From an uncultured Alphaproteobacteria bacterium (GTDB taxonomy: Bacteria > Pseudomonadota > Alphaproteobacteria > Caulobacterales > Caulobacteraceae): 64,000 bases of DNA. A model generated the notes under the pieces. That model saw only the letters and a program-made list of their open reading frames with translations. It had not been told where the DNA came from and ran no database searches. Made by a program: the position numbers and the translations under genes. Location of the stretch: the NCBI GenBank assembly GCA_903909375.1, contig CAIVVM010000051.1, positions 1 to 64,000 of the forward strand, in the 5' to 3' direction. Of this stretch, positions 61,326 through 64,000 are shown in pieces (position 1 is the stretch's first letter; the number at the start of each line of letters is the position of its first letter).

Positions 61326-62549
61326 ATGATCGGGCCATTCGTAAAAAGGCGTAGGACTTTGAAGGTACTGACGATTATCGGGACACGACCGGAGGCCATC
61401 AAGCTGGCGCCGGTCATACTGGCCCTGGCGGGCCGGCCCGATATTGAGTCCGTGGTTTGCGTCACCGGGCAGCACCGCGACCTCGTGGCGCCGGTACTGC
61501 GGCTGTTCGGCATCCGCCAGGATTTCGACCTTGGCCTGATGCGGGCCGGGCAGAATCTCAATGAACTGACCGCAGGGGTCGTGGCCGGCGTCGACGCTGT
61601 GCTGACCCAGGTCCAGCCGGACTGGGTGGTTGTGCAGGGGGACACGACCAGTGCGATGGGCGGGGCCATGGCGGCGTTCGGGCGCGGCGTTCCGGTCGCT
61701 CATGTGGAGGCCGGTCTGCGGACCCACAATCTTCAGAGCCCCCGGCCCGAGGAAATGAACCGGCGTGTGATCGACGCCTTCAGTGAGCTACTGTTTGCGC
61801 CCACGCTCCAGGCGCGTGAGAACCTTTTGCTGGAAGCTGCACCGGGGCGCGTTGTGGTCACCGGAAACACCGTGATTGATGCGCTGCAGGCCTGCGCGAC
61901 GTTGCTGACCAACGATGACGCACTGCTACGCAGCGTGGATGCCGGCTTGCCGACGCTGGATCCCGCTCGACGCACGCTGCTGGTCACGGGCCACCGGCGT
62001 GAGAACATGGGCGAGGGCGTGCGCGGGGTCTGCGACGCCCTGCTGCGGTTGGCCAAGCGCGACGACCTGCAGATTGTCTATGTTCTGCATCCAAATCCGG
62101 AGGCCGAGCTCCCGGTGCGGCACGCGTTGAGCGAGCAAGCCAACATCCTTCTGACTCCGCCGCTCGATTATCTCGCTTTCATCCGGCTTATGCAGCTTTC
62201 CGACCTGATCCTTACTGACTCCGGCGGTGTTCAGGAGGAAGCCCCGGCGCTCGGAAAGCCGGTGATCGTGACGCGCGATTTCACCGAGCGGCAGGAAGCC
62301 GCCGCGGCGGGAGTTGCGCGCCTGGTCGGCTCTGATCCTGATCTGATCGTGTCGGCGGTGAACCATCTGCTGGATGACGCCGACGCCTACAGGACGCAGG
62401 CGAGCCGGCGGCAGTTGTTCGGCGATGGCGCGGCCGCCGCCCGGATCGTGCGCGTGCTCGCTGGCCAGTCTGTTGAGGCATGGCGACCCGCCAACGCACC
62501 CCGTCTCGTGGACGATGCGAGGGCGACGGCCAGTCGTCGACGAGCGTGA
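61326..62549 (+). CDS. wecB: UDP-N-acetylglucosamine 2-epimerase
   Basis: A 407-residue cytoplasmic non-hydrolysing enzyme that interconverts UDP-GlcNAc and UDP-ManNAc. The N-terminal VLTIIGTRPEAIKLAPVI, VVCVTGQHRDLV, VQGDTTSAMGGAMAAF and VAHVEAGLRTHN are its first-domain signatures. VTGHRRENMGEG, LDYLAFIRLMQLSDLILTDSGGVQEEAPALGKPVIVTRDFTERQE form the UDP site. The start is at the ATG at 61326 or a TTG at 61359. It runs into a membrane glycosyltransferase 35 bases later, and probably supplies UDP-ManNAc for a surface polysaccharide. Confidence 0.95.
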   Translation: MIGPFVKRRRTLKVLTIIGTRPEAIKLAPVILALAGRPDIESVVCVTGQHRDLVAPVLRLFGIRQDFDLGLMRAGQNLNELTAGVVAGVDAVLTQVQPDWVVVQGDTTSAMGGAMAAFGRGVPVAHVEAGLRTHNLQSPRPEEMNRRVIDAFSELLFAPTLQARENLLLEAAPGRVVVTGNTVIDALQACATLLTNDDALLRSVDAGLPTLDPARRTLLVTGHRRENMGEGVRGVCDALLRLAKRDDLQIVYVLHPNPEAELPVRHALSEQANILLTPPLDYLAFIRLMQLSDLILTDSGGVQEEAPALGKPVIVTRDFTERQEAAAAGVARLVGSDPDLIVSAVNHLLDDADAYRTQASRRQLFGDGAAAARIVRVLAGQSVEAWRPANAPRLVDDARATASRRRA

Positions 62550-62584
62550 CGGCGATGCGCCGCGAACGTCAGCCAGGCTAGATC

Positions 62585-64000
62585 ATGATCGAGGCCTATA
62601 TCCTGGCCCTGCAGATCGCCACGGTCGTCGTGGGCGTGCTGATCGCGATATTCTCCATCGATGATCTGCTGGTCGACGGCTGGTACTGGGTGCGGGAGAT
62701 CTACCGCGCGCTGGTCGTTCGGCCTCGCCATACGCCGCTGCCGGTGTCCGCCTTGCATGAGCGCGCCGAACAGCCGCTCGCCATCATGATCCCGGCCTGG
62801 CAGGAGGAGGCGGTGATCTCGGCGATGATAGAGAACGCGGTCAGTGTTCTCGACTATCAGGACTACAAGATATTTGTCGGCACCTATCCCAACGATGCAG
62901 CCACCATCGCCGAGGTGGAACGCGCCCGACGTCGTCACAAGCGGGTTGTGCGGGTACAGACGACCTATCCCGGGCCGACCTCCAAGGCCGATTGCCTGAA
63001 CCACATTCTGGAGGCCATCCGGCAGGAGGAGCTGGCCACGGGCCGTGAGTACGCCGGTGTCGTCCTGCACGACTGCGAGGATGTGCTGCATCCGCTGGAG
63101 CTGAAGTTCTTCAACTATCTGTTGCCGCGCAAGGACATGATCCAGTTGCCCGTGATGGCGCTTGAGCGGGGCTTGAGCAAGTTGATCGCTGGCACCTACA
63201 TGGATGAGTTCGCCGAGTGGCACGCCAAAGACCTGGTAGTGCGCGAGTCCTTCGCGGGAACGGTGCCCTCGGCAGGCGTCGGGACCTGCTTTTCTCACCG
63301 CGCGATCACGGTCCTGCGCAACGGCAAGGGGCAGCCGTTCAATACCAGCACGCTCACCGAAGACTACGACGTAGGCGAACGTCTCGCCGCCAAGGGCCTT
63401 CGGGCCATCATGGCCCGATATGATGTCGACTACCGGTTCTACCGACCGGGCCGGAACGCCGATAGGGACGGCTACGTCACCGTGCGCCTGCCCTTGTGTG
63501 TCCGTGAGTACTTCCCCAACACCTTCCGGACATCCTTCCGTCAGAAGGCGCGCTGGATGATCGGCATCACCCTGCAGGGCTGGGCGCAACTGGGGTGGTC
63601 AAAATCATTCCGGACCAATTACTTCCTCGTCCGGGACCGCAAGGCCCTGTTGTCGGCGCCTCTGGTCGTCGCCGCCTATCTGCTGTTGCTGAACTACCTG
63701 GGTGCGATGATCGTTCTCGGCTGGGACCGGCTGGCGTTTCCTGAGGCGTGGCAGGCTCTGGTGGCGACGGTGTTTGGTTTCAATACATTCGCCCTTGTGC
63801 TTCGCATCGCCCAGCGGATGTATTTCGTGAACCGGATCTATGGCTGGCAGCAGGCGTTGGTCTCCGCGCCGCGCATGGTGGCCGGCACGCTCGTTAGTTT
63901 CGCAGCGACACTCCGCGCAGTGCGGATCTATTCCGGGCACCTGATCTCCAGGGTTCCGATCGCCTGGGACAAGACGGCCCACGAGTTTCCCGCCGGCGCG
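62585..64000 (+). CDS. NfrB-like membrane glycosyltransferase (cut by window end)
   Basis: An open frame of 472 codons reaching the window edge. After a transmembrane helix (about 8-27) it has the motifs of processive family-2 glycosyltransferases: IPAWQEE at 69-75, the DxD-like LHDCEDVLHP at about 161-170, TED at 258-260 (TLTEDYDVGERL) and RQKARW at 319-324. Two or more helices follow (about 357-410). This arrangement matches NfrB, the E. coli phage N4 adsorption protein, whose c-di-GMP-binding domain would lie beyond residue 472. The adjacent wecB strengthens the call. BcsA-like synthases share the motifs, so NfrB is likely rather than certain. Confidence 0.8.
   Translation, partial: MIEAYILALQIATVVVGVLIAIFSIDDLLVDGWYWVREIYRALVVRPRHTPLPVSALHERAEQPLAIMIPAWQEEAVISAMIENAVSVLDYQDYKIFVGTYPNDAATIAEVERARRRHKRVVRVQTTYPGPTSKADCLNHILEAIRQEELATGREYAGVVLHDCEDVLHPLELKFFNYLLPRKDMIQLPVMALERGLSKLIAGTYMDEFAEWHAKDLVVRESFAGTVPSAGVGTCFSHRAITVLRNGKGQPFNTSTLTEDYDVGERLAAKGLRAIMARYDVDYRFYRPGRNADRDGYVTVRLPLCVREYFPNTFRTSFRQKARWMIGITLQGWAQLGWSKSFRTNYFLVRDRKALLSAPLVVAAYLLLLNYLGAMIVLGWDRLAFPEAWQALVATVFGFNTFALVLRIAQRMYFVNRIYGWQQALVSAPRMVAGTLVSFAATLRAVRIYSGHLISRVPIAWDKTAHEFPAGA

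Follow-up and report, generated by a model that had tools for sequence, protein, structure and literature searches.

The locus analysed here lies at the end of a stretch of 64,000 nucleotides (the window), corresponding to the start (bases 1-64000) of contig C51, 151,221 bases long, from a Caulobacteraceae genome of 3.69 Mb that is 99.97% complete. Three genes, wecB, nfrB and nfrA, followed one another on the plus strand (Table 1), all three frames being open and tightly packed, with nfrA overlapping the stop codon of nfrB by a single base (TGATG). The earlier note, which was based on the window, had described a complete wecB followed 35 bases later by an NfrB-like gene with the four motifs of processive glycosyltransferases, and both were seen. 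Base 64000 fell inside nfrB and the contig continued past it; a reading of the locus as the two genes wecB and nfrB was dropped, since an NfrA-type gene appeared when the contig was read past the window end. The nfrA-like partner expected after nfrB was thereby found.

Table 1. Genes, motifs and domains of the wecB-nfrB-nfrA locus, in contig positions, which are also those of the window up to base 64000
Feature	Coordinates	Strand	Details
wecB, non-hydrolysing UDP-GlcNAc 2-epimerase	61326..62549	+	407 aa from ATG; TIGR00236 408.6 bits, cut-off 210
nfrB-type processive family-2 glycosyltransferase	62585..64000 in the window	+	472 of 688 aa in the window; gene end 64651 on the contig
NfrB motif K134-A-D136 (first GT2 aspartate)	62984..62992	+	K134 and D136 invariant in 22 aligned rows
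NfrB motif H162-D-C-E-D166 (DxD position)	63068..63082	+	H162, D163, E165 and D166 invariant in 22 rows
NfrB motif T258-E-D260	63356..63364	+	Invariant in 22 rows
NfrB motif Q320-x-x-R-W324	63542..63556	+	Q320, R323 and W324 invariant in 22 rows
MshE-type c-di-GMP domain of NfrB (predicted)	about 64022-64648, outside the window	+	NF053729
nfrA-type gene	64651-66111, outside the window	+	486 aa; PF13283 (NfrA_C) 134.9 bits

The first gene encodes the predicted supplier of UDP-ManNAc, whose residues 12-381 aligned with the solved WecB 1vgv (355 bits). A start at TTG 61359 is likelier than one at the upstream ATG, since the protein then opens with MKVLT, in register with residue 1 of E. coli WecB. 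Of the 11 residues gained with the ATG, no more than one or two were aligned in the solved relatives shown. This wecB was the sole match to TIGR00236 in the window's genome. A search of the same genome with E. coli WecC revealed two sugar dehydrogenases, one apparently TviB-like (556.4 bits, cut-off 592) and one apparently UDP-glucose-dehydrogenase-like, whose scores with the WecC model, 185.6 and 174.6 bits, were far under its cut-off of 459. On these grounds, the feeding of UDP-ManNAc into a WecC-type pathway was rejected, and no other consumer of UDP-ManNAc was recognised in the genome.

The assignment of the second gene to the NfrB type was based on the model NF012033, on which the window's protein scored 858.9 bits (cut-off 537), while the E. 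coli-type NfrB model NF008411 gave 592.5 bits, under its cut-off of 1170. The predicted structure resembled cellulose and hyaluronan synthases, and mannosyl synthases fitted equally. Two other identities of the synthase were considered and rejected: that of a PNAG synthase, since the score on the PgaC model was 16.7 bits where the cut-off is 422.3, and that of a cellulose synthase (BcsA), since no PilZ match at E 0.1 was found behind the transferase, where an MshE-type domain was placed instead. The presence of a C-terminal MshEN-type domain past base 64000, which the earlier note had proposed to look for, was confirmed by NF053729 (90.7 bits, cut-off 38), matching in two stretches with the best one at residues 480-532, and by the similarity of the C-terminal part of NfrB to MshE (PDB 5htl, E 2.6e-05). 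The Pfam MshEN model gave no match at E 0.1 in the window's NfrB and 52.9 bits in E. coli NfrB. By eye, a second MshEN-like pair could be made out around residues 628-682, and E. coli NfrB has a corresponding pair. Moreover, G491 and G519 of E. coli NfrB aligned to G482 and G511 here, both invariant in 22 rows, and the second glycine of the first MshE motif corresponded to E489 in the window's NfrB and was likewise absent from the E. coli protein. According to Sellner et al. (PMC8669472), N4 killing of E. coli was abolished completely by the substitution G491L and partially by G519S, and was left unchanged by the majority of other substitutions at that site.

The product of the third gene was considered through the model of a relative 92% identical to it, which presented helices at residues 24-250 fitting TPR proteins, followed by 12 strands at residues 253-485; the model had a pTM of 0.53, and VIA-align covered the TPR part alone, the rows shown being TPR proteins. 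No YbcH match was found in the fetched locus, and the Pfam scan of the eight proteins at and after nfrB gave no PgaB-like match. Downstream of nfrA there were a weak 3-keto-disaccharide-hydrolase-like gene (29.2 bits; L002:8227-8979, contig 66226-66978) and a gene for a PEPxxWA-CTERM protein (41.2 bits; L002:9150-10022, contig 67149-68021). A protein similar to the latter was also found 3′ of nfrA in another family genome (G091, locus L016).

The association of these genes was assessed in the Caulobacteraceae, where 27 of 390 genomes, from 7 of 22 genera, were found to carry NfrB (profile A1, E ≤1e-60, the window's genome counted). In the window's own genus the distribution was patchy, as only 6 of 100 genomes matched in a single-sequence search at E ≤1e-3. 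The occurrence of wecB (66 of 390 genomes; TIGR00236, E ≤1e-60) followed that of NfrB closely, with 26 of the 27 NfrB genomes carrying it versus 40 of 363 genomes without NfrB (Fisher p 1.6e-21, with no correction for kinship); the NfrB genome in which it was missing, G091, had its nfrB cut by a contig end. Twenty-six of the 27 NfrB loci were read, and that of G230 was placed by coordinates only. In 22 of the 27 genomes, the window's own included, wecB was located directly upstream of nfrB on the same strand, so that a pairing by chance was excluded in practice, and the adjacency that the earlier note had made conditional on comparison with relatives proved to be conserved. The called gap between the two genes ranged from -80 to 35 bases in the 20 family loci with wecB directly upstream, the negative values probably arising from starts called too far upstream. 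The wecB of G031 was placed about 2 kb from nfrB on the other strand, and that of G100, G101 and G374 was found elsewhere, beside genes that looked by eye like sugar-dehydrogenase or ABC-exporter genes for surface polysaccharides.

The flanks of the loci differed, since protein clusters were counted in 28 loci for nfrB, 23 for wecB, 16 for nfrA and 6 for the next-commonest cluster. Moreover, the distances among wecB genes correlated with those among nfrB genes (r 0.98, 0 of 2000 permutations; 21 loci, two of them from Collimonas), and relatives sharing about 54-56% identity also showed the compact layout. Two seemingly conserved neighbours, c46 and c33 (a 1697-aa call), were set aside, as they looked like antisense shadows produced by a simple gene caller. 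The linkage of wecB with nfrB and the occasional occurrence of NfrB in Alphaproteobacteria were published in 2021, and the rule given by Junkermeier and Hengge ties nfrB to wecB in genomes lacking any further wecB (PMC8669469); the pattern observed in the family fits this rule.

The layout was also compared with that of named genomes, taking the best 80 of 563 confirmed relatives, a sample that leans to close relatives. Among these best 80 of 563 loci, 69 had wecB within the stretch fetched (in four of the 11 without it, L020, L031, L037 and L072, that stretch breaks off immediately upstream) and 73 an NfrA-type gene; in 76 a BcsB-like gene was located directly upstream of nfrB, with the order wecB-bcsB-nfrB-nfrA plain in 55. 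The identity of the BcsB-like gene was supported by PF03170 in the four cases tested (24.7-41.0 bits, cut-off 21), and the named loci devoid of it were L017 (on the G095 contig), those of Collimonas (L065 and L088) and that of Erythrobacter vulgaris (L062). Conversely, the BcsB-like profile A5 matched none of the 27 NfrB genomes of the family and all three control genomes, and PF03170 gave no match in the window's own genome while matching the E. coli control. Since the BcsB-like gene is found in most named loci and was matched in none of the NfrB genomes of the family, the compact layout differs from the usual arrangement. Achromobacter has been reported to carry a BcsB homologue within a cluster of nfr genes (PMC8669472). 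In Acinetobacter, the adsorption of phage StAb3 requires a BcsB homologue from a locus with NfrB- and WecB-like genes (PMC12507263).

The length of NfrA differed between the two layouts when measured from the nfrB stop. Loci with the BcsB-like gene showed a median of 847 residues (n=65, range 414-1201), and those without it 446-524 in nine complete-looking loci and 741 in both Collimonas loci; L131, L138, L140, L012/L017, L013 and L124, being split, cut or odd, were excluded from this statement. In L131, L138 and L140, which come from three related genomes, the NfrA-type frame was broken into two or three pieces.

The history of the compact layout was approached by means of a quick NfrB tree of 103 rows, rooted at the midpoint, with long branches, two of which come together within the window's clade. 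Omitted from it were L015 and L016, whose genes are cut, L128, whose gene the caller missed, and L017, which shares its contig with G095. The window's NfrB grouped with those of four other family genomes and of Erythrobacter in a clade of six (SH-aLRT 100), which joined, with a support of 96, Xanthobacter rows carrying the BcsB-like gene. G031 and the remaining 17 family rows made up a distant clade, drawn beside E. coli NfrB. The absence of a BcsB-like gene required three changes on this tree against a mean of 24.1 for shuffled labels. On the rooting as drawn, the window's clade may have lost the BcsB-like gene, a direction of change that is held loosely.

We consider, with a probability of roughly 0.8, that the locus is a compact and self-contained Nfr-type (NGR-like) exopolysaccharide operon, producing a ManNAc-containing chain under a c-di-GMP switch and with export through NfrA. 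In this operon, WecB would convert UDP-GlcNAc into UDP-ManNAc, and NfrB, once switched on by the binding of c-di-GMP to its C-terminal MshE-type domain, would polymerise the ManNAc-containing chain and thread it through the inner membrane. NfrA, as a short TPR protein joined to a putative outer-membrane barrel, would then carry the chain across the periplasm and out of the cell. The choice of ManNAc as the donor sugar is drawn from E. coli genetics and from the linkage of wecB. The suggestion of a ManNAc-based surface-glycan locus of the NGR type, put forward from the window, was thus upheld up to the point of function by the domain, the partner gene and the adjacency.

The kind of system is already known, and it is the layout that differs. 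The E. coli Nfr/NGR system (nfrBA-ybcH) shares with the locus a processive family-2 transferase with an MshE-type domain, a TPR-containing NfrA partner and a WecB-type epimerase, the latter joined here by linkage. However, E. coli wecB is located in the ECA cluster and not next to nfrB, as had been stated at the outset, whereas here it is inside the operon; E. coli NfrA has 990 residues, twice or so the 486 found here, and the window's locus combines an NfrB below the E. coli-type cut-off with the lack of a YbcH match. The loci of Pseudomonas, Paraburkholderia, Stenotrophomonas and others carry wecB, nfrB and nfrA in the same order on one strand, and the window's NfrB clade falls inside their BcsB-bearing group in the quick tree, but they have a BcsB-like gene (PF03170) and a longer NfrA, neither of which is present here. 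Similarly, the PGR locus of Acinetobacter, proposed to make a ManNAc glycan, brings together genes of the NfrB, WecB and outer-membrane-porin types, but includes the BcsB homologue pgrD and a PgaB-like protein (PMC12507263); neither was found here. The Bcs and Pga systems resemble the locus in the modelled synthase fold and in c-di-GMP control in general, and differ from it in the features by which they were rejected above. The variant with a short NfrA and no BcsB-like gene was not found described among the matches listed from the open-licence literature searched, and a search for nfr genes in relatives of Caulobacter retrieved general matches only among the matches listed.

The glycan may in addition serve as a phage receptor in this host, which would complement the operon reading and not compete with it. 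This role is suggested by analogy with NGR in E. coli (PMC8669472, PMC8669469) and PGR in Acinetobacter (PMC12507263), two related systems that act as phage receptors, but smooth LPS is reported to be required by Circe, the one N4-like Caulobacter phage found in the literature (PMC12633290), and we regard such a role as possible but rather doubtful. A different donor is a less probable alternative, in which NfrB would polymerise GlcNAc or another UDP-sugar into a PNAG-like or mixed chain, with WecB adding a minor or modifying sugar. Neither membership of the GT2 family nor the modelled fold fixes the donor, given that mannosyl, cellulose and hyaluronan synthases fit alike, and in PMC8669472 the ManNAc-containing polymer of E. 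coli is itself a proposal. Nevertheless, wecB travels with nfrB in both the family and the named genomes, N4 infection of E. coli is abolished by the loss of wecB and not of wecA or wecC (PMC8669472, PMC8669469), and the low PgaC score speaks against a PNAG-like synthase, which makes this alternative unlikely. That the operon is a degraded remnant devoid of export, as the missing BcsB-like gene, the shortened NfrA and the need for a BcsB homologue in Acinetobacter (PMC12507263) might suggest, is very improbable in view of the open frames, the invariance of the catalytic residues and key glycines in 22 rows, the maintenance of the compact layout at about 54-56% identity, and the functioning of E. 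coli nfrBA, which has no BcsB-like neighbour in its annotation.

Under the preferred reading, the locus would represent a minimal three-gene, c-di-GMP-gated glycan system in a bacterial group with a well-studied c-di-GMP biology. In E. coli, wecB also feeds the common antigen; deletion tests of the role of UDP-ManNAc would be cleaner here, since wecB is the sole copy in the genome and is located inside the operon.

NfrA itself was not universal in the family, as NfrA_C was detected in 16 of the 27 NfrB genomes. A ShlB/FhaC-like outer-membrane protein adjoined nfrB in six loci, all of them devoid of NfrA; its gene was convergent to nfrB in five (L133, L126, L129, L130 and L143) and upstream on the same strand in G374 (L132). 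On PF03865, the G374 copy reached 42.0 bits and the G347 copy 17.7, under the cut-off of 22.7. With the G347 protein as query, a close subfamily was delimited in 8 of the 390 family genomes (E ≤1.5e-88, the next genome at 1.8e-45, with at most three candidates scored per genome), comprising the six that adjoin nfrB and those of G100 and G101 on other contigs; 29 of 390 genomes were reached at E 1e-30 when more distant ShlB-type copies were included. All eight genomes carried NfrB and lacked NfrA_C, and the subfamily was present in none of the 16 genomes with NfrA_C (p 7.4e-5) and in none of the 363 without NfrB (p 1.8e-10), kinship being ignored in both tests and five of the eight genomes belonging to one NfrB clade. 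The NfrA-less genomes G031, G034 (locus cut) and G383 were also without the close subfamily, and the window's genome carried NfrA together with no ShlB copy other than a distant one, located on C68 next to a gene with the passenger domain.

The service of a two-partner adhesin, the alternative role for this ShlB-like protein, was weakened by the distribution of the passenger domain PF05860. It gave no match in four of the eight genomes (G331, G335, G341 and G347), a negative that rests on the 7 of 14 searched genomes that did match, with none of 14 control genomes matching. In G100 and G101 the passenger was found beside a different, distant ShlB copy, and in G374 on other contigs; in G351 it was about 17 kb from the ShlB-like gene on the same contig. 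Tentatively, the Nfr systems of the family may do without a BcsB-like partner in two separate NfrB lineages, and in one set of genomes NfrA may have been replaced by an orphan TpsB-type barrel exporting polysaccharide, a reading that we hold to be less likely than not. We know of no such task in polysaccharide export for the protein-secreting ShlB/FhaC (TpsB) family; the matches listed in a literature search linking NfrB with ShlB, FhaC, TpsB or Omp85 included no paper with NfrB, and no paper was found that connects TpsB to the export or secretion of polysaccharide. Which periplasmic and outer-membrane parts such machines need is a question raised both by the lack of the BcsB-like part and by the possible swap. 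A further protein cluster, c7, was observed near nfrB in four loci (L014, L135, L065 and L088), and its copy in G031 is presumably polysaccharide-deacetylase-like.
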